64,000 nucleotides of DNA from Norana najaformis (lineage: Eukaryota > Annelida > Clitellata > Crassiclitellata > Hormogastridae), in the NCBI GenBank assembly GCA_964023275.1, contig OZ029929.1, positions 1,881,501 through 1,945,500 of the forward strand. The letters run 5' to 3'. The notes beneath the pieces were generated by a model, which was given only the letters and a program-made list of their open reading frames with translations, searched no databases and had not been told where the DNA came from. Below are positions 8,510-52,945 of this stretch, in pieces; the stretch's first letter is position 1; the number at the start of each line of letters is the position of its first letter. The translations under genes and the position numbers were made by a program.

Positions 8510-9600
8510 TCAGTCTTGATTCAGGTTGGGGCGCCACTTGTTAGCGAACATTGTCAGTCGGAGTGCGTCGAATTTTGAAAGTCCAAAGTCTTCGACAAGA
8601 ATGGACCGATCCAGTTCCAGCAGCATTCGTCCGTCCACAGTCATTCGCTGGAAAGACGGAACAAAATCGTGCAGGCTGAGCAGTTCCAGACATCGAGAGA
8701 CCCCATCAACGCTCAGCTGTGACACATCCAGGTTCTCTGGAACGTCTTCGAGGCTCTGCCAGTCAGATGTGCTGATGGACTGCGATCGGTTGAGGATTGG
8801 AGGGCGCTGGGAGTTTGTGGGTGGATCCAAGGTTCTTGAGCTCATTGGCTTCAATCCAGCTTTCGATTGGAGATCGGACGAGTGATTTGGAGTCGGTTCG
8901 TGGTTTTCGGATTTTCTCGGGAGTGGGATAGTTCTGGGTGTTGTTCGCAACTGGCTAAGTTCTTCCTCATCGAGACTCCGACCAGGTTTCAACAACCGAC
9001 TCATATTCGCGTTGTTTGGACGGGTTGAGGCAGGTGGAAGAGTCGAACTTGACTTTGGCGATGGTGTCATGTTCGACTTTGGTGGTGGAGGAGGAGACAT
9101 GTTTGATTTTGTCGGAGTCATGCTTGACATCGGTGGAAGAGTCATGCTTTTCTTTGGTGGAAGAGGAGGAACTGACGGCGCCAAGAGACTCGTACTCGAC
9201 ATTGAAAGCGTTGTGTTTGACTTTGGCGGAAGAGTCGCGCTCGACTTTGACTGCATCAGCGTCAGGCCCCTCCTGTCAACCGTCCTGTTGATAAATTGGG
9301 TAGACATCTGCGGTGGTCCGAGGTTCCCCAGTCTAGTTGCTTTTGCAAAAGCCTGTCGTGGGACTCTTGCTCCAGGACCTGGAATTTGGGGAAGTGCGAC
9401 TGGCTGGATGCAGACCTTGATTGGGTTTCGTGCCACAGTGTAGCACTTCTTTGTAGGTCGTGTTGACTGGGGCAGCTGCCACATGCAGATGTCCTTCTCC
9501 TCCTCAAGGTCACCTTCAGTGTCGTACGTGTGGGCCGTGAACTTGAGAGGACTGATGTACTCGTAGTCCCCGCCCGGAGATTCGTGAAAGATGAGAATCT
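8510..9600 (-). CDS. GAREM-like: GAREM-like last exon: Pro/Ser-rich linker and SAM domain
   Basis: The acceptor ttttccatttcag precedes AG ATT CTC, completing a Glu codon with the previous exon's G. Residues run [17 protein letters not shown], an acidic [11 protein letters not shown] segment, then repeats of the type [11 protein letters not shown] and [18 protein letters not shown]. The last 65 residues are a SAM domain ([47 protein letters not shown]), closely resembling the GAREM SAM ending NGWRPKI. The stop codon TGA is at 8512-8510. Confidence 0.85.
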
Positions 9601-10957
9601 CTGAAATGGAAAAACCTCGTCTGTTGTATTTATATAGTGCCACTATCAAATTAGGAAACAGCTACGTAGCTGGATATTTATACAGTGTCTTCTAAGAAAC
9701 TCTTAAAGACGCTATATCATCTAATTCCTGCTGAAAATTCCTGCTCGATCGCTACGTTCCACTCAAGAAATATTCTGAGCTTTTCTCAAGTCATACATTG
9801 TTAGAACTGTTACTTTAAAGATCTTAAAATGCACTTTGTAAAGTATACACATTCATGTTACCCTAGTTTAGTTCACAGTACCTTATCTTACCATACTGTA
9901 CTTCAGCTGACCTTACATTATTACCTCATCGGACCTTACCTGACCTTACATTATTATCTCATCTGACCTTACCTGACCTTACATTATTATCTCATCTGAC
10001 CTTACCTGACCTTACATTATTATCTCATCTGACCTTACCTGACCTTACATTATTATCTCATCTGACCTTACCTGACCTTACATTATTACCTGACCTGACC
10101 TTACCTGACCTTACCTGACCATACATTATTACTTCATGTTACATTACCTTAACTTACATTATTACCTGACCTGACCTTACCTGACCTTACCTGACCATAC
10201 ATTATTACTTCATGTTACATTACCTTAACTTACATTATTACCTGACCTGACCTTACCTGACCATACATTATTACTTCATGTTACATTACCTTAACTTACA
10301 TTATTACCTGACCTGACCTGACCTGACCTTACCTGACCATACATTATTACTTCATGTTACATTACCTTAACTTACATTATTACCTGACCTGACCTTACCT
10401 GACCTTACCTGACCATACATTATTATTTCATGTTACATTACCTTAACTTACATTATTACCTGACCTGACCTAGTTATCATTCCGTTACCTTGGCGAGGTG
10501 TGATGTGTCCGCTTTCGAGGTTCCTGCTGATCTCCGCCAGGTCCTTGATCCACCATTCGAAGCGATCTCCTCTGCCGTCGTAGACAAATCCCTCGGCCAC
10601 TTCCATCCGGATCGGAACGTATGCTGGAATCCCAATCACCAGCGGATGAATTTCGTCTGCAAGCAACAGAAAACCCAACCACATTGGACTTAAAGGCTCA
10701 ACATAAACACACAGATGATTACACACCTACATACACATACAACCAGGTGATGTGAAAGTCAATTAGGGTGTGACATACATACATACATTCACACACATTA
10801 CATACATGCATACATATACCCATCATACATATACCCATAAATCCATCCATCCATCCATCCACTCATCCACCCACCCACCCACCCATCCATCCAACCATCC
10901 ATTAAAACCAATTAATCCACCCACCCACCCACCCACCCACCCACCCACATACATACA

Positions 10958-19037: not shown

Positions 19038-21629
19038 TCAAGAAATATAAATCGGTACAAATCTGTCAATCACAGATCGACAAATCGGACAGAATCTTGG
19101 CTCCGGAAGCGACAACGCGCACTCAGAACATAAACAGACGTGTCCGCAGTTCAGGATCACGACCTCTAGCACGTTGCTCAAGCACACGGCACACTGGTTT
19201 CCATTCTCGCCGGCAACACCGGTTCCCCGCGCAGCAGCTCGCAGCTCCTCGATGCGTTGCTGGCTTCGCCTGAGCGCCATGTGTCGTCGAACGAACCGAA
19301 ACAGGACGTAGCCGATGATTCCCGCTCCGATCGTCGCAAACACCCAGAAACAGATGCGGTACGATCGAACCTCCGATCGGATCGAGCGCACTATCTCTGG
19401 CCTGCTCAGCGTCGTGACGATGTAACGCTGGCCTCCTTCCGGTGGCTTCAGCACGATCCGCCTTCCGTCAAGGCCAAGCATTCCAAGGCCAACAATGGGG
19501 ACACCGAGGCCAAGCATCCGTTCCGTTTCTTGGTAACCCTTGGTCCGTTCGCCAAAGAGTCGGTCGAGGCTGCGGGACAGAAAACCGTCCTGCGTTTCGT
19601 CGAAACGGTCGTAAGTCACCGGGAGATGGTCGAGAAAGTAATCGGCCGAAAGTGGGTCCATGACCTCGACCTTCAACCGACGAACCGAGCGCGAATCGGG
19701 ATCAACGATGCAGAACGGACGGACGTTGGCGACATCTTTGATGACACGTCTCACATCACTCCTGAATATTTACAACATCAAAACAGGAATTTTTAGAACA
19801 TCTGCTCTAATCTAATCTTAGAACTTCTGGAGCACAACCAATGGCACTTAAAAACTGATTCGCAATCCAGTCAATTCCAAAGGCTCGTCCAAGGAGAAAG
19901 AAATGCATCCATAGGAGCTGAAACAAGCTGAAAGAGAAACATCTAGAGTCAAAAACATGCATAAATTTTTGTACACTGATGACAACATAGATTGCAACAT
20001 AGTTGAGCTTTACAAAACAATCGCATATACTATGCATATAAATTTCCAGCAATTTAGGCAAGAACAGCAAAATCTTATTCACTTTATAAGTGCCCACAGA
20101 AATGCTATAAAACTATGTACTTACAAACCCCAATTTACCAAAGCCTCAATCTACCCCAATCTACTCAAAAACCAAAATTTACGCCAAGGCCTCAACCTAC
20201 CCGAATGAACCAAAATATCCCAATTAACCCCAAGGCCTCAATCTGCCCCAGTTAATGCCAAGACCTTGATCAACCTAAATAAACCAAAACACCCCAATTC
20301 ACCCAAGGCCTCAACCTACCCAAAAAAAAACAATTTATGCCAATACTTCAATCTACCTAAATGAACCCAAATACCCCAATTTACCCTAAGACCTCAAATA
20401 CCATAATCTAACGAAACAAAGCTCTTCTCACGAACCAGAAGCCCTGTATTCGTCTGGACTTGTGTTCGATAAACACCTCGTGTCTCACAACCCCAACTTC
20501 GTCCGTGAAGTGACTTTTCAGAGGGGCAGTCACGCCCCCTGTCGCCTCCGTGACGCCTTCCACACAAGCGTACGGGATGCACTTGGCAGGTGAAACCTCC
20601 AGCGCTTCTTTCATGTCATCACCAACTGAATAGCTGACCGCGTTCTGTCGAAGAGACAAACATTGTTTACAGTAGGTAAGGTAAATGGTCTCGTAATTAC
20701 TTTACAGAAGCAGTAGGAAGAGGAAAAGGGTCCCAAAATTACTTTACAGAAGAAGTAGGAGGAGGAACAGCAGAAATAGGACAAAGTACAAAAGCAGGGA
20801 GAAGAGGAAGAGTAGTGGAGGAGGAGTAGAACGAGAAGAAACAGGATGAGGAGTAATGGGAGAAAGAGGAGTATGATTAGGAGCAGAAAGAGGGCAGGGA
20901 AAAGAAGGAGTTAATGGAGGAACAGAAGGAAGAAGAACAGTCGAAGGACAAGGAACAGGAGGAGTAAGAGGAGAGGAAGGAGTAAATGGAAGATAACAAG
21001 AGGAAGTAAGATGAGAAGAGGAGGAGGAGAAACAGAAGGAAGAGCAGGAGTAAGAGGAGAGGGAGGGGTAACTGGGAGGATTAAGAGAGGAAGGAATTGG
21101 AAGAGTAACAAAAGGAGTAAGAGGAGGAACAAGAGGAAGAGGCAGAGAAACAGAAGGAGTAATAGGATTAGGATCATTAAGAGGAGGAGAATAAACAGCA
21201 GTCCCTTAAGCCAACCTTGAGTAGCTTGGAATGAACCAACCATGGAATGAAGTGTTGGCGACTTCATTTTCTTAGCCTCTTCATACGAGGGTGGCTGGCC
21301 AGTTCTCTCCTCGCTGCCTGATCTTCCCATCAAAAGTGAACGGTCTGTGTATCCAATTTATACCTCCCTAGGGGAGCTAGTGGAACATTAATCTTAAAAT
21401 ATCTTCCTGTCCTGATGGGATTTCAACCCTGGCCTCCAGATATCCTGAACCGAAGCTACATAAATTATTGCATTACACCACGTAAGAATGTAATGTAAAA
21501 CAGCCAGAAATTACTTACAGCAATGATGCTGGCCTCATCTTCTTTGTCTCGATACGCTTTATAGAAGAGATAAGCGACAGCAACATCGACCCCAATCGCC
21601 ACTGCCTCCCAGAACATCTCAGACGGCAT
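19038..21629 (-). CDS. MUL1: MUL1-like mitochondrial E3 ubiquitin/SUMO ligase
   Basis: MUL1 (MAPL) sits in the outer mitochondrial membrane with its RING in the cytosol and acts on mitofusin, DRP1 and antiviral signalling. Exon 1 is 21629-21519 (37 residues, with the membrane segment AVAIGVDVAVAYLFY). Exon 2 starts at 20644 after ...cgacag and runs through CIPYACVEGVTEATGG to IEHKSRRIQGFWF near 20420. Exon 3 is 19761-19038: VRRVIKDVANVRPF, RTKGYQETERMLGLGVPIV, a second membrane helix (ICFWVFATIGAGIIGYVLF), and a C-terminal C3HC4 RING (CAVCLSNV, NCGHVCLCSEC, LPEPRFCPICRSVI) ending VPIYIS. Length and domain order match the family at about 350 residues. Intron 1 is GT-AG, phase 0. The exon 2-3 junction does not resolve with a GT donor (see findings). 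Confidence 0.93.
20110..20400. repeat. Degenerate CCCCAATNTACCCCAAGGCCTCAA repeat in MUL1 intron 2
   Basis: About ten decayed copies of a 25-35 bp unit with AAGGCCTCAATCTACCC, directly downstream of exon 2 on the gene's strand. Confidence 0.65.
20690..21195. repeat. Purine-rich AGGAGGAAGAGG low-complexity tract in MUL1 intron 1
   Basis: About 500 bp of AGGAGGA/GAAGAGGA on the plus strand. The Leu-rich minus frame and the Arg/Gly/Lys plus frame through it are composition artefacts. Confidence 0.85.
21205..21340 (-). repeat. Family D repeat (3' part)
   Basis: Read on the minus strand: GAGAACTGGCCAGCCACCC, GAAAATGAAGTCGCCAACAC, TTCATTCCATGGTTGG. The same text appears at 24290-24365, 46240-46330, 46500-46565, 58425-58510 and 62630-62725 (-). 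Confidence 0.7.
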
Positions 21630-38151: not shown

Positions 38152-39368
38152 CTATAATATCATTCCATAGGCCCAACCTGAGATATTTCCTGCCTGGCAT
38201 CGAGCATTCTTTGTCTTGTGCAACTTGTTAGCTGTGAGGTAATGGTTGATCTTCTCCGCCTGACATCGTTCCAAGTACGACGCGTTGACGAGTCCGACAG
38301 AATTCCCCGACCCCTGCCGCCAGAACAGCGAGTCCGCGGCCCCCGTGTTCGATATCAGATCGAGCTTCATCCGAGTCAGGTTTTCATCCACCGGGTAAAG
38401 CAGCGTCGACGTCGCCAGCGATCGGGAACGCCTGTTCTCGGAGTTCACAATCTGATGCGACTCGTCGACAGACGTAAGCGAGAGCTTGCGCGAATTGGGT
38501 CGATCCCCCGTCTTCCTGTTCGGCGGCCGGAGAACTGTCGATGGTGAGATGACGCCGGACGACTGCCGAGGCGAGCCCCCGATCTCCGGAGTCGAGCAAT
38601 CCGTGCCCGACAGGCACCGAGTCACGACGTGATTGATCACGTTGAGCGGGTAGCTGGCGCGCCGTTGATTCACGCCGCTATCATCTGGTCGTAGTAGGTG
38701 CCCCGTCGAAACGACTTCGCTCTGCCGCCGATTACAGCCGCCGGCCCAGTTCGATATTCCGAGCCTGGAATTCTCACTAGGGTTCTTTGCAGAGTCCTGC
38801 GACGTCTGACGCACGTTCGAGTTCTTGTCAAAGTCGAAGTGATCGTCGCCAACCGGGGAACACTCGACGAGCGACGACAGGCGTCGAGCGGAGGTTAAGC
38901 TCGCGAGACAGTTCCCACCAGTCTTCTCGCAGTTCGGCAAACTGTGGCGACGACACTGGGCAGCGCTCGGGGACAGCGCACAGGTCCCCGCTTCGTCGGA
39001 TGTCCGATCCGTGGGCAGACTGTGACGTCGGTGACCGTTTATTCCGAGGCGATTCGCCAGTTTACTGATGAGATCGGAGTCGTTGAGCACAGGATTCGCG
39101 TTCTCCTTGTTGTCACACAGAGCGTCCAGGTCGACCACGGCGACCAGGGTTTGCTGGCACTGAACCTCGCACTGAATTTCTGGAGTCCTAATCGTTTCCG
39201 TGCAAGCGACTACGGTCAGCGTCTGTGCCTGGACTATCTCCTGCGCTATGACGTCATCCCATTTCGAGCGGTTCAGTCGTAGATTGCTGAGCTGGAGAGA
39301 CGTCAGTGAGCTCGCGAGGAATCGATTCCATTCTACGAACAATGGCTCCACCACGTTTGCCATGAAAC
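38152..39368 (-). CDS. PDE7-like: PDE7-like long C-terminal tail exon with PKA-type motifs
   Basis: After the last catalytic helix ([28 protein letters not shown]) about 360 residues follow that PDE7 enzymes normally lack. The tail is Ser/Asn/Arg-rich and probably disordered. It holds basophilic kinase consensus sites: RRHSLP at about 39020 and again at about 38945, RRLSS at about 38880, RRQSEV at about 38718, RRASYP at about 38660, and RKLSLT at about 38485, plus RRSRS near 38430. A KEN-type word (DNKENANP) lies early in the tail. The frame ends with TAG at 38154-38152; an in-phase donor at 38178 offers an alternative end at 36709. Confidence 0.85.
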
Positions 39369-40666
39369 CTACAATACAAGATAATACAATACAACACAAG
39401 ACTATACAATATTATGCCATACAATACAAGACAATACAATATTATGCCATACAATACAAAAAATGGTCCTCCACTGCAAGGCCTCCTGAGCTCAGGTGTC
39501 TGAGAGAGCCAAGGGCTGTTGCAACCCATCTTAAAAACTCGCCTGTATCCTCTGAGTAGTACTTTGTCTGGTAAAAGACGACACATAAAATTACAAACTG
39601 ACAATACAGTACAATATAATAGAAGACACATGAAAGAAAATAAACAGACACCTGTTTGAATTGTGGCAACAGACGACTTGAAACGATCACAGAATGGCGC
39701 CACAGGTAAGCCTAATTTCCGTTCACAGTCACCTGGCAACAGAAAAACACAATGATTAACAGTAGAAGAGCAAACCCTTAGACACCTAGACACTCTACCT
39801 TAGTTGGCATAAATTCCAGTATTGTTCAGGGTTCGGGTCTGGGACCAGTGAACTTCCTAGTTGCCATATCCAAGTATAAGCCTTTAGCACCCAACAATAG
39901 GTTATTTAAATACGCTGATGACAGTTACCTTCTTGTACCATCCTGCAACAGCTTATGGTTCAGGCTGAACTGGACCATGTTGCCCTTTGGGCGGATAAGT
40001 GTAACTTAAAACTTAATCATAAAAAGACATGTGAAATGATAATTCACCGGCCAAGAATGAGAAATCAGCAGATAATTTTACCTAATGTGATTCCCGGTTT
40101 AACCAGGGTACCAGAGATGACAATATTGGGTGTTACCCTATCGAGGATGTTAAATTTTGATTCTCATATTGATCGGATTCATAGTCAGGCGCGTCAGTCT
40201 TTATATGCCATACGAATTCTTGTAGCACATGGCCTAACTGGCCCTCGGCTCTACGACGTTGTCCGAGCCACAACACTGGCCAGGATGCTGTACGCCTCTC
40301 CCGTGTGGTGGGGCTATGCTGGGGCACAGGCTAGAGCTCGGCTTCAGGCTTTGATGCGGAGACTTGTGCGTCTCCGCTATCTTCCTGGGAACTCCCCAAC
40401 GTTCGATGAACTCTGTGGCACAGCTGATGCTCGTCTCTTTAAAGCAATCTTGAACAACCCAAACCATGTCTTACAACAGCTACTCCCACCAGTTAAAACC
40501 CTCAGTTATTCCCTACGGCCCCACACCCATGATCGTATTATTCCTCCTGCTGACAATTTAACGCGTAAATGTTTTATTGTTAGGATGTTGTATGAATATT
40601 AAGTTTTCTTGTGTTCTTAAATACTTGTAAACCGATGTGCGATTAGCTATTGGTTAATAAAGAATA

Positions 40667-40697
<31 letters not shown>

Positions 40698-43379
40698 CTA
40701 TTTTAAGGCTACCATTCGCTTGATAAATAAAGGAAGACGAAGAACGCACAATCCCGGTGACACTTCTTTCATTCGCTAGATTAATAAGTAGAGACGAAGG
40801 AGCAATCCCTTGAACGCCTCTTTTAAGGTTACCATTCGCTAGATGAAATAAAGGGAGACGAAGAAGTTGCAATCATTTCTCTTCCACTGTTATTTAAGGT
40901 AACCATTCGCTAGATAAATAAAGGGAGGCGAATAAGGGTCAATCCCTTATACACCTTTTTAAGGTACCATTCGCCAGATAAAGGGAGGCAAAGCAGGCTC
41001 AATCCCTTATACACCTCTTTTAAGTTTACCATTTGCTAGATAAATAAAGGGAGACAACTAAGAGGAAATCGCATGGATCAAAGACGACGACGACATGGAA
41101 GAACATCTAAGTTCGACGTCAACGGCCCTGGCAGCCATAAGGTGTCGTTAAACACTGGAAACTAAAACTATATCTGAGGATGACCTTGACAGGCAAACAC
41201 GCACATGAAGTCTTAGTAACTTCATTTCTGTTAAGCTAGGTATTTTATGGCATGGGGCAAGCCCTCTCTGTTGTCGCCTGGTCTACCCACGGACAGTGTA
41301 CACCCAGTGTATGCATTACAACCCAGTATGCTAGGGGGGCAAGTAGAGCCGAAATCTTGAAACAAATTTCTGCTCTCTGAACCCTGAACTCTTGATTGAC
41401 AGTTCCGCACGCTAACCACTAGACCATCACACACACCCAATGATTGACAGTAACTGGTCTGATATTTATATTAAAAACTATAATAATAATATCAAGAATA
41501 ACAAAACTTTATCTTCTCTCTGGATTGATTTTACACACCCCTAGATAGCGTAACACCTTATGGTAGAAAAAGCATACATCGTATTACTGGTGATCATTAG
41601 CCATGCCAGATCGAGTTTCTCTCTCATTCGCTTTGTATTTCTTCCTCCAGACATATTCCTTTTGGTCCAAATATGAAATTACTTGCCACTTGTTGTGGAA
41701 AATCCTATCCTGATTCCTCTTCTTCCCCTTATCTATCCTGCAGATCCAATTCCAAACACCACCCACCGTAGGTGTCTGACTGCCTGCCGCTTGACTCTTG
41801 GATCTTGACCTGGAACCGAACCCTTCCTGCCTATTGATTTTTTTGACTGATCGCCTGTAAATAAGCTGGTTCCTGCATCTTGGCTTTCGTTGGGTGCTGT
41901 AGAAATCTCAAGTTTACGATTACGGGATTTACTTAAGCTATTTATTCACTGTATTTACTAAGTAAGCTTTCTATGGGTGCTGTAACCTTGAGTTTACGAC
42001 TACGATTACATGCAGAAGCTCAGTAAATCTGAGAAGCAATGAGACAAGCGTGCACAAACAGCTAGTCCAGGATTGCTACATGGAGTTTGCTCAGCAGCCT
42101 CAAACCAGCAATCATTGGATTAAAGACCCAGCATACTACTGCAGCCTTTTTTGATCAGCAATAATGTTTTATTTATGTTTTATTTATCATTATTATTTTA
42201 TTATTACTTATGTATTCCACGCCTTTGATTCCTCGCTGTCGATGGACATATGGCACATTAACAAATGCATTACTTACTCACTCACTCACTCACTCTCTCT
42301 CACTCTCTCACTTACTTACTTACTTACTTACTGCGTCAGATGAAGATCTGGTCAGTGTGTGAATGTGCTTTTCAGGATGTGAACTCACCCTGTCGGAAGA
42401 ACTCTTCACAGATCATCTCACTCCAGCGTTTACTCAGCAGCCAAGGTCGGCAAGGATTGCAGATGTCAGCACACTTCAGAGTTATCTACAAACGACCAAC
42501 AAAATCATTCAACAAACAACAATGATGATGACAATGATAATGTCAGCAATGACTGACCAATCCCTGCTCCCCTAGATTTTGTAATCCTCACGGATTATTC
42601 ACACCTGAGGTAAACTGATGATGATGATGATGATGATGATGATGACGACGATGATAATGATGATGATGATGATGATGATGACGATGATTATGATGATACT
42701 AATAGCTTTCATTCTCCATAGATATGCAAGTCCTTAGATTCGATTTTTACTTTGGGTAAAAATAAAAACTATAAATAAACTAATAACAGTAATGATAATA
42801 ATAATGATGATGATAATAATGATGATGATGATTATGGTGATGGCTGATGATGATGATGATGATGATGATGACGATGATTATGATGATACTAATAGCTTTC
42901 ATTCTCCATAGATATGCAAGTCCTTAGATTCGATTTTTACTTTGGGTAAAAATAAAAACTATAAATAAACTAATAACAGTAATGATAATAATAATGATGA
43001 TGATAATAATGATGATGATGATGATGGTGATGGCTGATGATGATGGTGATGATGATGATGACGATGATAATGATGATGCTAAGCTTTCATTCTCCATAGA
43101 TATACAAGTCCTTAGATTCGATTTTTACTTTGGGTAAAAATAAAAACTATAAATAAACTAATAACAGTAATGATAATAATAATAATAATGATGATAATGA
43201 TGATGATTGATGATGATATGATGATGATGATGATGACGATGATAATAATATTAATGATAATAACAATAACAATAACTCTCAAATGTACTGACGCCGCCAT
43301 GTTTTCCGATATGAGCGGAGAAGGGGGCCAAGGGAAGCCAGAAGTTGTTTAGAGGGTTCGGTAATCTTCAGTTCATAAC

Positions 43380-43420
<41 letters not shown>

Positions 43421-46400
43421 GAAGAAATGTCAAAGGCTACTCCACCTGCAGAATGAAACTCCTGTGAACATCCTTCGACTGAAGATCAAGACTACCTCGT
43501 TGTAGGTGGTCCTATCAGAAAACAACAGCTGTTAGAAAACACTAGCTGTGATAAAGCAGTAGCAGTAAGAAACCTGTAACAGTCTGAATTATAAGAAAAA
43601 GCTAACTAGCAATGAAGCTATTGACCTTTTGTGTTTTAATCTGACCTTCTGGATATTGACCTTATTACAGCTTGATTTTGGTGCAGTTGATACCCTGTGC
43701 GTTATACACAGGCGCTATAGAAGTTGCTGACTGATAATAAAATAGCAGAACACTAGCGGTGAGAGCTATACAAAATGTGCAGCTTTGAAAGCTATAGCAA
43801 AATGGTGACAGTAAGAGCTATGAGAAAAAATATGTATCAGAGAAGCTTTAAACAATAGCACAAATCTAGCTGAAAATAACAGATGTTAAGTTACCACTGG
43901 TACATGTTATATACCTGCTAATAATAGTATTAAGTACATTTTTTACTCTCTAAATACCAGTTTACAAGGGTCATGTATGCCTTTTGTATTTTTTTCTTAC
44001 CATTCCAGTGATCAGCTTCATTGTTCTATATCTTCAATGCAATTTTATATCACTTCAATGTAATTTTATCTTAAAAATTGTTTCCAGCCTTTTTAAATTG
44101 TCTTCCGGATATTGTGATCTGACGAAGAAGCGTCTCCTTCTGAACTTAAAATAACTGGAAAATTTAATATGCAAACAGATATGCTGGACTTTGCTTTGCA
44201 AAATTTCCAGGATCTCCTCTCCAATTTCAGTAGTATGCAGCACGTTTCTTTTCCAACCCATGACATGGGTCATAAACTTGATCTTGTTATAACCCGATCC
44301 AACTGTTCTGTGGTTTAAATTATATATGCTTTTGAGTCATATTTGTCTGATCACATGGCCATTACTGCTCAGGTTTCTTCCTATCATAAGTCGCCATCCA
44401 CTTAATTTTGCATCAGTTACCACCCTTGGAAAATGCTCAAGGTTTCAACCTTCAAAACTGACATCCTTGACTCCAGTCATTGTGCCTAGCAAAGACAGCT
44501 ACTGAACTTGGTGCTCAACCAAATTCGACCCTATCTCAAGTCCTGCATAAGAAGCACACAGCTGCTAAGTCTGAGAGTGTTTCCAGCCCTGGTACAACCC
44601 AGAAATTGCCGCTGCCAGGAAGCTAGGAAGAATTCTAGAAAGGTGTTGGCAATGCTCCCATTTACGTTTTCATCAGTGTCATTAAACTTGTCTCGGCAGC
44701 TAGATCGACCTACCTGTCTTCTCTGGTCTCTGAAAGCTCCTCTTCTCCTAGGCCATTATGGCAGGCGGTAAACAGGATCCTACATCATGGCATATGCAAT
44801 ATATTACCTAGATCTTTATCACATTCTTCCCTTGCAGAAAGCTTTTATGCTTCTTGCCTAACAAGATCTCAGCCATAACAACCAACTTTTCCAACCTTCC
44901 TTCTTCCATGGCTTTCATACCCTAAATCTCCTCCTTCGGTTCTCAGCTTACTTCACCTCCATCAAAGACTCTGAAATTCACTGCTCAGTTCTGTTCTGTC
45001 TCTCAGTTCTTCAATGTCTAAACTTAAGACTCATCTTCTTCAACTTTCGTATCCACCGTAGCCCAACTTCTGGTTCCTCTGACTTACAGGAATTCAAAAT
45101 GGCTTCTACAATGGATTACGATTCTGATTATGACTTTAACTGAAGCGACCTCGATTGATGTCTTGGGCATTGTGATATTGGCGCTATAGAAGTCATTAGA
45201 TTAGATCAGATTTCTGACTGACCCGGAATGACCCGAGGATTTCCTGCTGTCGGGTGATATCTGTGGCGAGGATCATCGCCTGCGTCAGTGTGAGGACTTC
45301 ATTCCTATATGGGAAAAATAAATCACAGAATAAGGCATGCTTCGAATGAAAATATCCGAAGGTGGCGCTACATAAATGCTCTGAATGAACGAATGAACCA
45401 GTGAATGAATGAGTAGAAAGAATAAATGAGATACATTTAACATCCTGCATTACCACCTCCGCCACCACCACCACAACCACCACTACCACAACCACCACTA
45501 ACACCACCACTAACACCACCACTAACACCACTACTAACACCACCACTAACACCACCACTAACACCACTACTAACACCACCACTAACACCACCACTAACAC
45601 CACAAACCTTCTGGCAGCGTTGGGTGTGAATAAATTATCTCCATTCTTTTCAGTCATTTGTCAACCCAGTGCTTTTCTAGTGTTTAGCCCAAGTCTCATT
45701 ATACATATGTATGTATGTACATATGCCAGCATGTATGTATGTATATATGTATGTTTGCATGTATGTATGTATGTATATATGTATGCATGTATATATGTAT
45801 GTATGTATTTATGTATGTATGTATGTATGTATGTACATATCTATGTATGTATGTATGTTTGTATGTATGTATATATCTATGTATGTATGTATGTTTGTAT
45901 GTATTTATGTATGTATGTATGCACCATGAAAGGGAAGTCTACACGGATTTTGGTTTTATTGGAACTGTCCATCAAATGGCCCACCCACAGCTACGAATCC
46001 TCGCTCAGCCGATGAACATATGGCATCTTAACAAATGCATTACTTACTTACATATCACGACATTTCACACAGTAAGCACCTCACAAAGGCATTCGCAGCA
46101 TTTGTCTCCATTTGTATTTTTCTGTATTCATTGTCTTTCGTTGTCTTTTCTTCTCTTTCCTTCACATCTTGCATGTGGAGCATTTCTTGGGATTCCGTCA
46201 GGTGGCAGGGTATTGTACAACACACTGTTGGTGGGATGATCAGACGCCAATGGAGAGGACTGGCAACCCACCTTCATTAGAGAAGGCTGAGAAAATGAAG
46301 TCGTTTACACTTCATAACCATGGCGTCATTGGGGTTTTGGGAAGGGGTCAGGATGCTATGTGTTGAGTGGGGGTGTAACTGGAGCATCGTTTGGTGTTTC

Positions 46401-49400
46401 ATTGGAGAATGGGTGTGTGGCCACTCACTGACTCATTCACTGACTGATTCTCACTCAGACTCATTCACACACTAACTCACTCACTCAATCTTAGCATAAT
46501 TCTTCATATATCAAGGCTAAGAAAATTAATTCGCAAACACTCCATAACCATGGCTGCCTTCCAGGGTTCAGATAGTTAATGCATCGCCTTACACCTCTGC
46601 AACTCTGTTTAAATCCACAGTAGACGATTGGCTAGAGCACTCGGCTTGTATGTGGGTCACGGAAGCTGACTGGTTAGAGCACTCGGCTTGTTTGTGGGTC
46701 ACGGAAGCTGACTGGTTAGAGCACTCGGCTTGTATGTGGGTCACGGAAGCTGACTGGTTAGAGCACTCGGCTTGTATGTGGGTCACCGAAGCTGACTGGT
46801 TAGAGCACTTGGCTTGCAGGTGGGTCACGGAAGCTGACTGGTTAGAGCACTCGGCTTGTATGTGGGTCACGGAAGCTGACTGGTTAGAGCACTCGGCTTG
46901 TATGTGGGTCACGGAAGCTGACTGGTTAGAGCACTCGGCTTGTATGTGGGTAACGGAAGCTGACTGGTTAGAGCACTTGGCTTGTATGTGGGTCACGGAA
47001 GCTGACTGGTTAGACAACTCGGCTTGTACGTGGGTCACGGAAGCGGACTGGTTAGTGTGGTCGGCTTGTAACGTGGAGAGTATGGGTTAGAGCCTCCTCA
47101 CCCGAGATGGTTACTGTGTAGGGACCTTGAGCAAGTCCTTCACTCACAATTGCTTCGCACCAGAAATTCAGATTTACTAACCTTGCATGCGTAAGAAAAG
47201 CAATAATAACAACAATAAAATGGAATTGAGATGAACAGCCGACAGCGAGAACGAAGGTATTGATGGAACTTGCCAGGTGTTTCGGTCGAGGTGTTCAAAG
47301 ATGCGTGACTCGCGTAGGATCCCAATCATCGCTCGCCAGTGGTGGTTCTCGAGTACAGAAACATTCTACAGAAGGAAAAACACCCTTCTTCAAGCTCGAT
47401 TCTATTTTTATTTTGTTAATCTAATCTGATGACTTCTATATGTTCTGGTTTAGATTATCCTATCTGTCTTATATTTAATTTATTTGGATATTTAATCTGT
47501 GTTATCTGTCTAGATATCTCATACATCCTATCGAACTATCTATCATATCTATCTCATCAATTACTTATCTACCATATCTATCTTATCGATCGATATTATC
47601 GTCCTACGTTATAAAGGGATGCCAGAGGATTTGAGGTCGCGATAAGAAACGCCTGGTTGACCCCTGGATGATCAAGGTCATGGCTGGCGGCGGCCATGAT
47701 GGCTGCCATTTTTTCAACCGGCCGCAGATGTTGCGCTATCTGAAAGAAATCACAGATCCATCTCACTATCATTTAATATCACGTTGATCACTATCAGCTA
47801 AAGAGGCGCAGAAGCCTATTGGTTAGAGCGCTCGGCTTGTATTTGGGTCACGGTTGCTCATTGGTTAGAGCGCTCGGCTTGTATGTGGGTCACGGTAGCC
47901 GATTGGTTAGAGCACTCAGCTTGTATGTGGGTCACGGTAGCCGATGGTTAGAGCGCTCAGCTTGTATGTGGGTCACGGTAGCCTATTGGTTAGAGCACTC
48001 GGCTTGTATGTGGGTCACGGTTGCCGATTGGTTAGAGCACTTGGCTTGTATGTGGGTCATAGTTGCCAACTGGTTAGAGCGCTCGGCTTGTATGTGGGTC
48101 ACGGTTGCCTAATGGTTAGAGCACTCGTTTTGTATGTGGGTCATGGTAGCCGATTGGTTAGAGCACTCCGCTAGTAATGCGAAGAGTACGAATTCGAGCC
48201 TCCTCTTCTACGACGATGATCACATTCATCGTCGTCGTCGTCATCATCATCATCGTCGTCGTCGTCATCGTCATCATCATCATCGTCCTCTAAGTAACTT
48301 AAATTTCTCAGTAGCATTACATGAAAGGGTCGTTACCTGCATTGGTACTTACTATGGTATGGCAGTTACCTGTGGCTCTTGTAGATTGCAGTACATGGCT
48401 TGGACGACATCTGCCGCATGGACAGAATTGTGATAGGGATTGGAGAAGTAGTAGCCGGACTCAATGAGGGCTACAACGTCAATTGCAAACTTATTTATTT
48501 ATCAGTTGATCATTTGCAAGAGATGGGACGCGGTGGTGTAGTGGTATGGTCTGTGCCTCGTAACTGGAGGGTCACGATTCGAATCTGCCTCCAGCCACTG
48601 TGTAGCGACCTTGGACAAGTTGCTCACCCATGATTGTCTGTGAGGAAGGCACTCATCTGATCCCCGAGTGGCATAAAGACAAGGGACCTGCCTTCGGGCA
48701 GAGAACTCATCATCATCATCATTTGAAAGAACATTATATGATATGAATCGTTTACAACTGAATCTCCATGGTGATGGTGGTGGTGGCGACGACGACGATG
48801 ATGATTATGCACATTTTCATTTTTCTCCCAGCCATTTTTTTGATGAAAAGAGAAATCCAGCAATCCAAGCCAGTCACCCCGTCACGCCTTCTCGGTGGTC
48901 TAACGAGGGATGCTAGACACAATTTTCACCAACAGTTAAAAACTGTTCTTTTCCACTGGAGCTGGGCTGGGAGCGCCTCTCGGCATACTACTCGAAGGGG
49001 CGCCAAATAAATGCTCTGAATGAGTGAATGAATGAATGAATGAGTGAATGAATGAAGGAAGGAATGAATGAATTAATTAATTAATTAATGAGTGAATGAA
49101 TGAATGAGTGAATGAATGAGTGAGTGAGTGAATGAAAGAATTAATGAATGAATGAAGGAATTAATGATTGAACCTAGCCAGCCAGCCAGCAACCAAGCTA
49201 AGGCAGCAGCCCAACCAGATAAAGCAAACCAAAGCCATTGAACCCAACCACATCAACCATAAATCGCTCAACCCAACCAAACAATCGATCCATTCCATTC
49301 GATCGATCTAATGATCCTACCGAGACACCTCATGAGTCGGACGACGTCGAGCTGAAAGACTTCGATAAAACCACATTTGTAGAACAGTTGAAGAGTCATG

Positions 49401-51234
49401 TGAAATAGGCCACGGCCTGAAACAGACATGTTACACGGCTAAACTAACATGTGAAAAAGACTAGCACTTGCAACAGACATGTTATACGGCTAAACTAACA
49501 TGTGAAAAAGATTCAAACTTGCAACAGACATGTTAAACGGCTAAAATAACAGGTGAAATATGCTTCCCACATAACAACAAAAACAGTTACATGGGTTATT
49601 TTAAATTTGAAATAGTATCATTTTTATTCTGATTTTTAATATTATTTTTGTTACCTAAGGTAGAAATCACCCCTCGGGATTTGAAACAAATGTTTGGAAA
49701 AAATGAAAAAATCATCTGGATGGTTTAGACTTCATTATTATTACTGTGTCGTTTTTATTCTGACGATAACACATAATGTATGAGAGCTTAACATGCCGAA
49801 AAAAGGTAGCAGGTCTCCAGTTACTATTAACATTATTATTTTAACACTAAGAATAAATACCAGAGCAAATGGAAAGCAATTTATTTCAGCAATTTATACA
49901 GCCACCAACCGACAGACAGATAGAGAGAGACAGAGAGACACACAGACAGCGTCACACAGACAGAGACAGAAAAAAAACAGACACAGACAGAGACAGACAT
50001 ACAGAGACAGACAGACAGACGGACGTGGAGTAAAAAAAGCACTGAAAGGTATATGAAAGAGGTAGAAGAGATCGTGTTATGGGTAGCTAACCATTAGTGA
50101 GCAAGTCTAGTGTGAACACATTGAAGTTCCAGTCATCCACTGAAGACAGATGATTCTGAAAACAAGAAGACTTCCTCCACTGTTATCTGATCTAATCTAA
50201 TCTAATGGATGGATGACTGGATGGATGGATGACTGGATGGATGGATGACTGGATGGATGGATGACTGGATGGATGGATGACTGGATGGATGACTGGATGG
50301 ATGGATGACTGGATGGATGGACGGATGGATGGATGACTGGATGGATGGATGGACGGATGACTGGATGGATGGAGGGATGATTGGATGGATGGATGACTGG
50401 ATGGATGGATGGTTGGATGGATTGAAATGGATGGAAGGATGGATGAACAGATGGATGAACGTGTGGTTGAATGGGTTGGTAGATTGAAGGATGGATGGTT
50501 TTGGGTTTTGAGTGGTTGGTGGGTTAATTGATGGAGAGAGGAATGAATGAAGGCATGAAGGAGTGAACAAAGGAACGAAATGCAGGATCAAAATAAGGAA
50601 GAAATGAAAAGAATGATCGAAAGGAAGAACAACTGAAGGAAGGAAAAAGCAAACAAATGAACAAATGAAAAAAGGAAGAAATGAATGAAGGAGCGAAGAA
50701 GTGACGCCTACCATAGCAAGCGTCATGTACTGCAAGTCGACGACGTAAGCGACGCAGTCTTTCGTCATCGTCGTCATCGCCAGATGGCGTCGTTTCGTCC
50801 TCGTAGTCGCTGTATAACTCCCACCGCTGCTTCCGCTCGATAGGCGGCGCTGCGCGAGGCGCCCTCTCTTGGCCGCTGACGACGAACTGTCGAGTCCTAC
50901 AGAGGAAGACGCACAGCTGAACAGGACAGTCTGCGCTCTTCCTTCCGTGGAGAGATGCAGGTGATGCACTCGGCACATCATCCTGCCTTCTCATGTCTTG
51001 AACAATCCTCTTAGAACAGCCCTCCTCCGCACTTACTTACCTCTGCATCTCACTCTGTTCATCGCACTACTTTAAAATGCACTTTGTCTGCAGTCAGGCG
51101 TGCAGCACTTAAAAGGCGCTACATAATTGTCCAGATGCACTTGACATCAAAATACAGACGAAAACAGAGGCAGGCAGAGTGACGGACGGACAGGCAGACA
51201 AACAGATGGACAGACACATACATATTCATACCTG

Positions 51235-51274
<40 letters not shown>

Positions 51275-52945
51275 CGTCTAATTGGCATAACAGGATCTGG
51301 AGTAAGAATCCTGCTACTCCAGATGGAAGAGGGAATTCCGAGATGGAAGAGGGACTTTTACCTATTAGTCTGGTATCCGCCTGGAGTGAGTTTTTCCGCT
51401 TGGATTTCTTGCAATCCTTCGTCAGCTCCGGCTTTGTCTGGGCCTTCACATCCCCTGGAAGAGAAGAATGCATTGTGGTGAGCAGAACAACCTTTAATTT
51501 CCTGTGTGGTGTGTCTGGGTTTGAGTCTCCTGTAAAGACTCGCTGTTCAAGGAACTTTATTGTCATTACTATCATCAACATCTTTGTCATCATTACCACC
51601 ACCACCAACAACAACAATAATTATCATCACCACCACAATCACCACCACCATCACCACCACCACCGTCATCATCATCACCACCACCCCATTATCACCATCA
51701 CCACACCCACCACCACCACCACTAACACCACCACCACCACTATCACCATCAACACCACCACCATCATCATCATCATCACCACCACCATTATCACCATCAC
51801 CACACCCACCACCACCGTCATCACCACCATCACTACTACCACCACTACCACCACCACCACCATCACCACTTTTATCACCATCACCAACACCACCACGACC
51901 ACGACCACTACCGCCACCATCAAATTATCAGGCACTGGCAACTGGTGCCCAGTCGTTAGTCGTGCCTTTCAAACACAATAAGATACTTTCATCAACAGCA
52001 ACTGCGCACTTGTGATGAGTGTATCTTAACCACATGCAAGACAGGCTCCAAGTACTACCCACGATTCTGAAGAGCCCTTCAGATTAAATCTGATTCAATC
52101 AGATTAGATTAGATTAGATTAAGAGAGTGCATCTGATTGGTTGCAACAGGTCGCCTAGCAACCCTTGCCATCAGCCTTTCTTTACCATTTTACCATAAGC
52201 GCTTGAAGACCACCTGACTGATCGTCGTTTCATTCTGTCAGGTCGGGGAACAGCCTCTGAGAAGTTCTCTTGAAAAGGCGCTATATAAATGTGCAATTAC
52301 GGTTACAAACTATTACTCAGATAGGTTTGTGGTGGTTGTGGATCTTCCTTTATCTATTTGACATGTTATGTATTTAACTGTTTGTGGGTTCGTCCAGGAC
52401 TACGATTCCTCGCTCAGCCGTTGGACATATGGCGAGTTAACACATGCATTACTTACATACTTACTTTTAGGTTCCTCTAATAATTTTTCAGTCAAACGCA
52501 TCAAATCACAAATCTCTCTGGTCGATTCTAACGATTCTAACTTTCCTCTGGTCGATTTTAACTCTATTTGTCGATTCAAAATCATTCCTTGTTGAGTTTA
52601 AACTCTCCTCCGGTCCATTCATACAAGCAATCTGTCTGGCTGATTCTAACTCTTCTCAATTATTCTAACCCTCCTCGGGTGAATTCTACAGTCCTATACC
52701 GAATTTAACTCTTTTAGAGCATTCAAACCAGACTCTAACCCTTTCTGCACTGCCTCTAACTCTCTGTCCATTCTGATCCGAAATCTCTCAGGCCGCTAAC
52801 TGTGCTTCGGCGGGGGGTAATGATGTAGGGCCATCTTACTCTGCAGCAGCAGCAGCAGCAGCAGTGGGTCGTAAAATTGCTTACCGAGCATTCTGACGTA
52901 GAGAGCCTTCTTATCCGTCCGTTGGTACGACACCCCTCCACGTCT
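38152..52945 (-). CDS. PDE7-like: PDE7-like cAMP phosphodiesterase, 13 coding exons
   Basis: PDE7 enzymes hydrolyse cAMP to AMP. Minus-strand exons are 52945-52885, 51454-51362, 50986-50712 (frame uncertain), 50155-50092, 49416-49321, 48470-48370, 47739-47608, 47365-47274, 45304-45223, 43511-43446, 42485-42389, 39732-39652 and 39368-38152. All phases agree and sum to 2457 nt, so at least 818 residues; the start codon exon is missing. The N-terminus [20 protein letters not shown] matches the PDE7A segment [20 protein letters not shown]. Catalytic landmarks follow in order: [82 protein letters not shown], and [17 protein letters not shown] with the substrate-orienting Gln. Metal-binding His, His, Asp and Asp are all present. 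One intron is GC-AG. Human PDE7A is about 480 residues; the excess here is a C-terminal tail. Confidence 0.92.
39400..39480. repeat. ACAATACAATA-type repeat next to PDE7 tail exon acceptor
   Basis: About seven ATACAATACAAGAC/ACAATATTATGCC units immediately upstream of the acceptor at 39369. Confidence 0.75.
39803..40700 (+). mobile_element. 5'-truncated non-LTR retrotransposon (reverse transcriptase domain)
   Basis: The frame begins [19 protein letters not shown] and [14 protein letters not shown], the palm-domain motif with catalytic ADD. After a frameshift near 39945 a 215-codon frame continues: [47 protein letters not shown], then the C-terminal thumb-like part. Stop at 40602. The 3' end is AATAAAGAATATACTTAC with an ACTT tail, a jockey/CR1-type arrangement. 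It sits in a PDE7 intron in the opposite orientation and is inactive because of truncation and frameshift. Confidence 0.85.
40700..41065. repeat. 60-66 bp satellite, ACCATTCGCTAGATAAATAAAGG
   Basis: Five or six copies with ACCATTCGCTAGATAAATA, GGGAGACGAAGAAG and CAATCCCTTATACACC. The array starts directly at the LINE tail. Confidence 0.85.
41215..41440 (-). mobile_element. SINE family D, minus strand
   Basis: On the minus strand: GGTCTAGTGGTTAGCGTGC (A-box-like), CAGGGTTCAGAG, GTTTCAAGATTTCGGCTC and GTGTACACTGTCCGTGGG. Confidence 0.75.
41590..41945 (-). repeat. Family B, long copy, minus strand
   Basis: Read in reverse complement it gives CTTGAGATTTCTACAGCACC, TTATTTACAGGCGATCAGTC, GTTCCAGGTCAAGATCCAAG, then GGTGGGTGGTGTTTGG and GGATAGGATTTTCCACAAC. 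Confidence 0.75.
42160..42335 (+). mobile_element. Family C 3' end with ACTT/ACTC tail
   Basis: TTATGTATTCCACGCCTTTG, GATTCCTCGCTGTCGATGG and ACATATGGCACATTAACAAATG precede ACTTACTCACTCACTC. Lies 54 bases from the donor of the PDE7 exon at 42389. Confidence 0.7.
42389..50155 (-). CDS. PDE7-like: PDE7-like catalytic-domain exon cluster
   Basis: Exons 4 to 11 encode the HD-type catalytic domain. Exon 50155-50092 gives [19 protein letters not shown], aligned with the PDE7 phrase WNFDIFLFDRLTNG. Exon 49416-49321 gives [19 protein letters not shown], then DVVRLMRCL. Exon 48470-48370 carries the first metal-site motif HNSVH. Exon 47739-47608 carries [10 protein letters not shown]. Exon 47365-47274 carries VLENHHW and ends in a GC donor. 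Exon 45304-45223 carries ILATDI. Exon 43511-43446 gives [19 protein letters not shown]. Exon 42485-42389 carries the metal Asp in LKCADICNP. Segment lengths equal those I recall for human PDE7, with no gap needed between 49416 and 48370 or 47365 and 45223. Confidence 0.9.
42600..43265. repeat. 190-bp tandem triplication with GAT runs
   Basis: AATAGCTTTCATTCTCCATA, then GCAAGTCCTTAGATTCG and AATAAACTAATAACAGTAATG occur at about 42701, 42891 and 43081. Each copy is separated by a GATGATGAT/AATAATG block. Lies in the PDE7 intron between exons 43446 and 42485. Confidence 0.9.
43375..43425. repeat. AAT trinucleotide run
   Basis: About 14 AAT units, 20 bases from the donor at 43445. Confidence 0.95.
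43615..43735 (+). mobile_element. L2/CR1-like LINE 3' end
   Basis: CTTCTGGATATTGACCTTA, TTGGTGCAGTTGATACCC and CACAGGCGCTATAGAAGTTG. Confidence 0.65.
44160..45215 (+). mobile_element. Decayed LINE copy: endonuclease segment to 3' end, internal deletion
   Basis: Matches 54960-56100. Endonuclease text such as [29 protein letters not shown] and TRSNCSV is followed by stops. The reverse transcriptase core is deleted between about 44930 and 45000. The 3' end GGCGCTATAGAAGTCATTAG with an ATTAG tail is at 45178-45208, fifteen bases from the PDE7 donor at 45222. Confidence 0.8.
45450..45605. repeat. ACCACCACTAAC minisatellite
   Basis: Units of 12 bp in a larger 24/36-bp pattern (ACCACTACTAACACC). 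In the PDE7 intron upstream of exon 45304. Confidence 0.9.
45700..46060 (+). repeat. ATGT microsatellite then family C 3' end
   Basis: ATGTATGTATGT runs cover 45700-45925. CGAATCCTCGCTCAGCCG, ATGAACATATGGCATC and a short ACTTACTTAC tail close family C at about 45990-46050. Confidence 0.85.
46240..46570 (+). repeat. Two family D body fragments
   Basis: GAGAGGACTGGCAACCCACC and GAAAATGAAGTCGTTTACAC at 46250-46330. AAGGCTAAGAAAATTAATTC at 46510-46565. Between them are CACTCACTGACTCATTC runs. Confidence 0.65.
46625..47060 (+). repeat. 42-bp tandem array derived from the SINE A tRNA-like head
   Basis: About ten copies of a 42-bp unit containing GGTTAGAGCACTCGGCTTGT, ATGTGGGTCACGGAAG and CTGACT. 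The array runs into a normal SINE A body at 47060-47160 (GTTACTGTGTAGGGACC). The 14-residue periodic frames are artefacts of 42 being divisible by three. Confidence 0.9.
47060..47160 (+). mobile_element. SINE family A body
   Basis: GTGGTCGGCTTGTAACGTGG, GGGTTAGAGCCTCC and ACCTTGAGCAAGTCCTTC, truncated after GCTTCGCACC. Confidence 0.75.
47810..48205 (+). repeat. Second 42-bp SINE A head array
   Basis: About eight copies: GGTTAGAGCGCTCGGCTTGT, ATGTGGGTCACGGTTGCC. One copy lacks a base (47940), shifting frame. The last copy continues into AATGCGAAGAGTACGAATTC. A TCGTCATCATC run follows to 48290. Lies in the PDE7 intron between exons 48370 and 47739. Confidence 0.9.
48528..48690 (+). mobile_element. 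Another tRNA-like SINE
   Basis: GGGACGCGGTGGTGTAGTGG (A-box-like), GGTCACGATTCGAATC (B-box-like), CACTGTGTAGCGACCTTGG. The body differs from families A and D. Confidence 0.65.
48690..49175 (+). mobile_element. CAT/GGT runs, LINE 3' end and GAAT microsatellite
   Basis: TCATCATCATC at 48708-48722, GATGATGGTGGTGG at 48770-48810. TTCACCAACAGTTAAAAAC and GGCGCCAAATAAATGCTC (48925-49020) are a LINE 3' end. GAATGAATGAATG runs to 49170. Confidence 0.65.
49417..49562. repeat. 51-bp triplicate that includes a PDE7 splice acceptor tract
   Basis: ACATGTTACACGGCTAAAC, AACATGTGAAAAAGA and CTTGCAACAGACATG recur at about 49426, 49477 and 49528. The polypyrimidine tract of the acceptor before exon 49416 is the near edge of the first copy. 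Confidence 0.8.
49562..50030. other. AT-rich intron then GACA microsatellite
   Basis: 49562-49890 has no recognised feature. GACAGACAGAGAGAC and similar runs fill 49905-50030. Confidence 0.6.
50185..50520. repeat. GGAT/GACTGGAT microsatellite
   Basis: About 24 bases of ATTAG-type text, then 16-bp units GGATGGATGGATGACT to about 50440 and decayed copies beyond. The Ser/Ile/His/Pro minus frame is repeat translation. Confidence 0.9.
50712..52945 (-). CDS. PDE7-like: PDE7-like N-terminal regulatory exons
   Basis: Exon 52945-52885 carries RRGGVSY, the equivalent of the PDE7A RRGAI pseudosubstrate-like motif. Exon 51454-51362 gives [14 protein letters not shown], then [16 protein letters not shown], with another basophilic site (KRKNS). 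The next exon, 50986-50712, ends at ATG|gtaggc. The frame that joins both neighbours reads [17 protein letters not shown] and ends [10 protein letters not shown] different frame ([32 protein letters not shown]) is also open but leaves the exon in the wrong phase. Acceptor choice here is weak. The upstream first exon was not found. Confidence 0.65.
51165..51275. repeat. GACA and GT microsatellites
   Basis: GACGGACGGACAGGCAGAC at 51180-51215 and GTGTGTGTGTGT at 51240-51270. Confidence 0.9.
51590..51930. repeat. ACC/ATC trinucleotide satellite
   Basis: CACCACCACCATCATC text. Thr/His/Pro and Val/Met frames are artefacts. Confidence 0.9.
51940..52860. other. PDE7 intron with family C and ATTAG fragments
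   Basis: GATTAGATTAGATTAGATT at 52100-52120. AAAGGCGCTATATAAATGTG at 52270-52295. Family C end at 52360-52460 (TACGATTCCTCGCTCAGCC, ACATATGGCGAGTTAACAC). CAGCAGCAGCAGCAGCAG at 52844-52866. Decayed GATTCTAACTC repeats fill 52480-52760. Confidence 0.6.

Follow-up and report, generated by a model that had tools for sequence, protein, structure and literature searches.

The locus analysed here raises the question of whether a cAMP-hydrolysing phosphodiesterase (PDE) can carry, behind its catalytic domain, a tail of PKA-type sites through which the kinase that cAMP activates would act back on the enzyme. The window, meaning the whole stretch of 64,000 nucleotides that was analysed, corresponds to C17:1881501-1945500 of the Norana najaformis genome (608 Mb, 17 contigs). 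A tblastn search with a bait sequence that we take to be human PDE7A1, with exon boundaries hand-picked at frame-preserving donors (GT or GC) and acceptors (AG), produced a PDE7 gene on the minus strand with 13 exons (e2 to e14, Table 1) in a single frame of 788 codons and a stop. The first exon was not found in the window gene model. Eleven of the 12 introns were GT-AG and the one after e9 was GC-AG; the shared phase is a check of the model and not an independent proof, since the boundaries were fitted by hand. Use of the non-canonical GC donor of e9 (47272-47273) resulted in a gapless alignment to PDE7A at that segment, and the paralogue on contig C12 described below has GT at the corresponding place. 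For e4, a second open frame appeared by eye more protein-like than the phase-consistent one, it matched neither neighbour's phase as the splice sites were read, and codon scores on the frames did not settle the choice. Elsewhere in the window, a 226-aa plus-strand frame at 39922-40602, in the intron between e12 and e13, looked by eye like the terminal part of a non-LTR retrotransposon, with TTAC repeats after it, and had no Pfam match. A MUL1-type E3 ligase fragment with a GIDE domain and a C3HC4 RING was seen at 19038-19769, and a Pro/Ser-rich frame at 8510-9661, which is presumably GAREM-like, showed a weak SAM match below the Pfam cut-off (E 0.043).

The identification of a PDE7-type enzyme in the preliminary description was borne out. 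The best PDB matches in a phmmer search were PDE7A (E 4.9e-109), and the next family followed at about 1e-55 ('Phosphodiesterase', 1.5e-55; PDE4D, 6.3e-55) among the best 60 of 151 matches. The catalytic part matched PDEase_I with an E value of 3.7e-80, and its domain was identical to human PDE7A at 158 of 285 positions (55%). Alignment to PDE7A covered the metal-ligand, HDLDHPG and invariant-glutamine segments, so that the class I PDE residues are present; which of the aligned residues are metal or nucleotide ligands is our assumption. Judged by these alignments, the enzyme is assigned to PDE7 rather than to another class I PDE family, and its active site is predicted to be of the cAMP type.

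The last exon continues the catalytic domain in frame, as e13 ends with ATIQT and the first residues of e14 match PDE7A. From model residue 421 onwards it encodes an intronless tail of 368 aa, a contiguous open frame that confirmed the roughly 360 extra residues described earlier. Across the tail no stop occurred in its own frame; the other two frames of the same strand had 14 and 12, and the antisense ones 6, 14 and 14. The GC content by codon position was 0.565/0.484/0.696. Scoring synonymous codon use, with the catalytic exons as the training set, gave no separation between frames (tail frame -0.016 vs -0.107 and -0.030; antisense 0.005, -0.072 and 0.008). No Pfam domain was found in the tail. 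The AlphaFold2 model of e14 from a single sequence had a mean pLDDT of 33.4, which was too poor for a fold search; the tail is probably disordered, although a single-sequence score of this kind is consistent with disorder and does not prove it.

Table 1. Positions in the window of the PDE7 exons, the C-terminal tail and its kinase sites.
Feature	Position	Strand	Evidence or comparison
e2, with RRGGVS pseudosubstrate (52945-52928)	52885..52945	-	GT-AG, phase; matches PDE7A bait QRRGAISY...ALYIRMLG
e3, with KRKNS (51401-51387)	51362..51454	-	GT-AG, phase
e4, extra RRLS (50849-50838) in phase-consistent frame; frame uncertain	50712..50896	-	
e5, start of catalytic domain	50092..50155	-	gene model
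e6	49321..49416	-	gene model
e7	48370..48470	-	gene model
e8, HDLDHPG	47608..47739	-	gene model
e9, GC donor	47274..47365	-	gene model
e10	45223..45304	-	gene model
e11	43446..43511	-	gene model
e12, CADICNP	42389..42485	-	gene model
e13, ATIQT with invariant glutamine	39652..39732	-	gene model
e14, last exon: catalytic end, 368-aa tail and TAG (38154-38152)	38152..39368	-	AG at 39370-39369, phase 1 join to e13, open frame, PDE7A match at start
Tail, 368 aa, probably disordered	38155..39258	-	translation; pLDDT
RRHSLP, pair site 1	39013..39030	-	aligned to RRNSLP of C12 paralogue
RRHSLP, pair site 2; Ser 26 residues after site 1	38935..38952	-	aligned to paralogue RRLSLP, spacing 16 there
RRLS	38875..38886	-	no paralogue counterpart
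RRQS	38719..38730	-	no paralogue counterpart
RRASYP	38647..38664	-	no paralogue counterpart
RKLS	38479..38490	-	aligned to paralogue RKMS
RRSRS run	38401..38433	-	identical in paralogue; 8/10 codons synonymously changed

Translation of the tail recovered every site that had been listed for it, in the order RRHSLP, RRHSLP, RRLSSL, RRQSEV, RRASYP, RKLSLT and the RRSRS run. The five RRxS motifs compare with a mean of 0.26 in composition shuffles and the six R[RK]x[ST] motifs with a mean of 0.58, and neither count was reached in 100,000 shuffles. The broader Rxx[ST] occurred 13 times (mean 5.3; reached in 53 of 100,000 composition shuffles) and R..[ST].P three times (mean 0.23; reached in 127 of 100,000). 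When dibasic pairs were kept intact, the six R[RK]x[ST] motifs still exceeded a mean of 1.8 and were reached in 435 of 100,000 shuffles. In addition, serine stood at +3 for six of the eight R[RK] pairs of the tail, and at most three times at every other offset from -6 to +9. The PKA-type sites in the tail are therefore non-random. A possible KEN-box degron (NKENANP, KEN at 39108) was rejected, NKEN being aligned to NGEN in the paralogue, and no calcineurin PxIxIT-type motif was found in the window PDE7 model. As a control for chance clusters, other PDE loci of the genome (L003-L032) gave only two open frames of at least 300 aa (L003 and L031), which are too few; each contained no R[RK]x[ST]. 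Frames as long as 642 are given in the genome match listing for several further matches and were absent from the rechecked loci. At L003 (C11:2624509-2625183), by contrast with the split PDE genes, a single uninterrupted frame of 526 aa encodes the PDE domain, and the locus is perhaps a retrocopy.

At the N-terminal end, the RRG[AG][IV]S pseudosubstrate exon is present in the window PDE7 as e2, recognised with the bait that we take to be PDE7A. The preliminary description had counted RRGGVSY and KRKNS as further sites. Both exons are bounded by GT-AG sites and join their neighbours in phase, and KRKNS presumably lies near the position of RRGS in human PDE7A. RRGGVSY was rejected as a phosphosite and is a pseudosubstrate, because glycine occupies its phospho-acceptor position. 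The PKA RI subunits have alanine (RI alpha) or glycine (RI beta) at that position and behave as pseudosubstrates, and PDE7A1 has two N-terminal pseudosubstrates that bind and inhibit the PKA catalytic subunit, according to the passages of PMC6143667 on these proteins. On this description, e2 most likely came down from PDE7 as an element that binds the kinase, and not as a phosphosite. Mammalian PDE7 is credited with an N-terminal PKA phosphorylation site in a passage of PMC11281825 that does not specify which one.

A search of the genome with e14 produced two places, the window itself and C12:12773039-12773545, where the match was 40% identical over query residues 11-205. The C12 locus (C12:12771539-12775045) contains at 889-2073 of its minus strand a 394-aa open frame with a PDE7 start, which matches PDE7A, followed by a tail that forms one exon as in the window. 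With the catalytic domain as query, 42 matches were obtained, and all those with at least 50% identity fell in the two PDE7 genes. The C12 matches were collinear with e5-e14, with AG/GT-type boundaries near the corresponding places. The catalytic identity between window and C12 was 199 of 279 over the exon pieces compared, and in view of this value and the 158 of 285 between window and human PDE7A, the two genes probably arose by an old duplication. The tail in C12 carries RRNSLP, RRLSLP, RRCSFD, RKMSLI and the RRSRS run. Its five R[RK]x[ST] motifs (mean 0.52) were reached in 4 of 50,000 shuffles, its three RRxS in 45 and its two R..[ST].P in 1039 of 50,000. N-terminal exons of the C12 gene were not found, and tblastn together with a motif scan of 12,775,001-12,865,000 (about 80 kb upstream of e5) found no e2-like pseudosubstrate exon. 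The sole motif-scan match was RRNAV at C12:12808188 (minus strand, 3188 of locus L039), about 23 kb upstream of the paralogue e5, which we take to be a PKI-like pseudosubstrate word. It is a possible exon and was not counted as one, since it is flanked by stops on both sides and its likeness to e2 is limited to the motif.

Comparison of the two tails showed that four of the seven sites were common to both, namely RRxSLP twice, RK[LM]S and the RRSRS run, and that RRLS, RRQS and RRAS had no aligned partner in the C12 tail, which counts against full conservation. Among the R-R-x-S-x-P sites, in this comparison of paralogues within one genome, both RRxSLP were kept and RRASYP was not. In a global alignment of the tails, 30 of 47 motif columns were identical compared with 70 of 321 other columns, and random placement of the motif windows reached 30 identities in none of 20,000 trials. 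Since the motifs help to make the alignment on which this placement test leans, the C12 tail was also shuffled with its motif words kept whole. In these shuffles 30 in-motif identities were reached in 2 of 1000 (mean 15.9), and the alignment score in none of 1000. The tail columns outside the motifs had a mean of 61.8 identities; since the real 70 was reached in 99 of 1000 shuffles, the similarity of the paralogues there is near that expected by chance. Site positions alone are weak evidence, as the three aligned sites out of six R[RK]xS were reached in 104 of 1000 word-keeping shuffles. The longest run common to both tails was 10 residues, within the RRSRS run; the 300 full shuffles gave at most 5. 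Over the 28 codons compared in the four kept motifs, 20 differed synonymously, 3 changed the residue and 5 were the same; every change of residue (H to N, H to L, L to M) fell at the free x of RRxS/RKxS. As the motifs were chosen for being kept, this count shows constraint on the protein words and not the number of constrained sites. Overall, the expectation that the sites are conserved above the surrounding tail, which had been framed for orthologues, held in the paralogue used here for four of the seven and did not extend to RRLS, RRQS and RRAS. Scans of contigs from prokaryote genomes for PDE7 orthologues present as contaminants found no relative.

The kept R-R-x-S-L-P fits both the PKA consensus (Arg at -3 and -2, hydrophobic at +1) and a 14-3-3 mode I-like motif (Arg at -3, Pro at +2). 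By its sequence, the kept subset suggests a paired PKA/14-3-3 docking motif, which is narrower than a general multisite region. We would put at about even the chance that the tail is a PKA-phosphorylated regulatory region on which a 14-3-3 dimer docks for sustained cAMP destruction. A rise in cAMP would lead PKA to phosphorylate the R-R-x-S sites of the tail, and the phosphorylated tandem R-R-x-S-L-P pair would let one 14-3-3 dimer dock at two points, with RK[LM]SL and the RRSRS run as additional sites. The different spacing of the pair, 26 residues in the window and 16 in C12, counts against a paired reading, and either distance could be bridged by one dimer. With 14-3-3 bound, the enzyme would most likely stay active, in place or protected from phosphatase, and cAMP removal would therefore outlast the signal as negative feedback. 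The N-terminal RRGGVS, like the pseudosubstrates of human PDE7A1, may hold the PKA catalytic subunit beside the tail; against the scheme stands that the 80 kb scanned upstream of the paralogue e5 gave no exon like e2, and that other basophilic kinases share the motif. In this scheme PKA as the kinase, 14-3-3 as the reader and the sign of the effect are what we infer by analogy; the sign in particular is conjecture, and 14-3-3 might instead inhibit or relocate the enzyme. Passages of PMC12153654, PMC3869376, PMC11281825 and PMC13095499 describe S312 of PDE3A and S318 of PDE3B as PKA sites tied to 14-3-3 binding and feedback. Protection of PDE3B from phosphatase by 14-3-3 is stated in a title cited by PMC11281825. 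The effect sign is open even for this model system, because in PMC3869376 a rise in catalytic activity on PDE3B phosphorylation could not be shown. In yeast Nth1, two PKA sites are needed for one 14-3-3 dimer, as stated in a passage of PMC7806596. The multisite feedback proposed in the preliminary description thus stood as far as the non-random PKA-type sites; three of these had no counterpart in the paralogue, and the feedback role rests on inference.

The tail could also be phosphorylated by PKA or PKG and act by bulk charge, as in the CFTR R domain, loosening or tightening its contact with the catalytic domain without 14-3-3. The site enrichment, the disorder-like AlphaFold2 model and the presence of Pro at +2 in only two of the four kept sites speak for it, but bulk charge needs no exact words, yet RRxSLP and the ten-residue run were kept amid divergence, and we regard it as unlikely though worth serious attention. 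That the writer is another basophilic kinase (PKG, CaM kinase or an AMPK relative), so that the tail integrates a different signal, seems quite unlikely to us. RRxS and RKxS are presumably common to basophilic kinases, but the hydrophobic residue at -5 that we take to be typical of AMPK, SIK and PKD is absent at the kept sites of the window, and a scan of the whole window model for hydrophobic-x-R-x-x-[ST] found only VTRCLS and FWRQGS.

Sites and pseudosubstrate could instead make the protein a PKA sponge or docking arm, holding or competing for the catalytic subunit and so damping PKA directly. Ordinary substrate sites presumably bind the kinase weakly, and the paralogue kept its tail sites though no e2-like exon was found in the 80 kb scanned, which makes this decidedly improbable despite the RRGGVS of e2. 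The N-terminus of PDE7A1 acts in this way in the passage of PMC6143667 concerned. A further reading, in which most transcripts leave the tail untranslated or splice it out and the motifs are incidental, agrees with the codon score that did not separate the frames; it is very improbable given the absence of stops in 368 codons and the open one-exon tail with the same words and mainly synonymous change in both paralogues.

No account of a PDE7 C-terminal PKA tail or of PDE7 binding to 14-3-3 was found among the matches listed in a search of papers available without subscription. In the two papers that contain PDE7A, 14-3-3 and 'phosphorylation site', the 14-3-3 passages found concern PDE3, and neither of the two passages on human PDE7 mentions a C-terminal site cluster. 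For the N-terminal region of PDE7, the passage of a 2025 review (PMC13095499) gives no known regulatory domain. Other invertebrate PDE7 records may well contain such a tail without comment.

Kinase words kept across a divergence that erased nearly all else would make control of PDE7 by PKA, and perhaps by 14-3-3, testable here, as control like that of PDE3 but via the opposite terminus. Should orthologues show the same pattern, the vertebrate enzyme might be a shortened descendant of a PDE7 under tighter regulation. It is a speculative and rather unlikely extension that the ancestral animal PDE7 was a self-contained cAMP feedback device, in which the pseudosubstrate would recruit PKA, the core would destroy cAMP and the RRxSLP pair would recruit a 14-3-3 dimer, and that vertebrates lost the tail.

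Among known systems, PDE3A and PDE3B are cAMP-hydrolysing PDEs with PKA phosphorylation and 14-3-3-bound feedback, features described for PDE3 and proposed here for the window PDE7; however, the PDE3 sites precede the catalytic domain, whereas those of the window lie in the C-terminal tail of another PDE family. The long forms of PDE4 likewise place PKA feedback on a cAMP PDE, with the site in UCR1 before the catalytic domain and not in a C-terminal tail. Nth1, with two PKA sites (S60 and S83) for one 14-3-3 dimer, is an unrelated enzyme. The CFTR R domain is similar as a disordered region with many PKA sites and differs in belonging to an ion channel and in being thought to act by charge. Finally, human PDE7A and PDE7B resemble the window enzyme in the catalytic domain (55% identical), the N-terminal RRG[AG][IV]S exon and the cAMP-type active site predicted here, but their tails are short compared with the 368 aa of the window PDE7.
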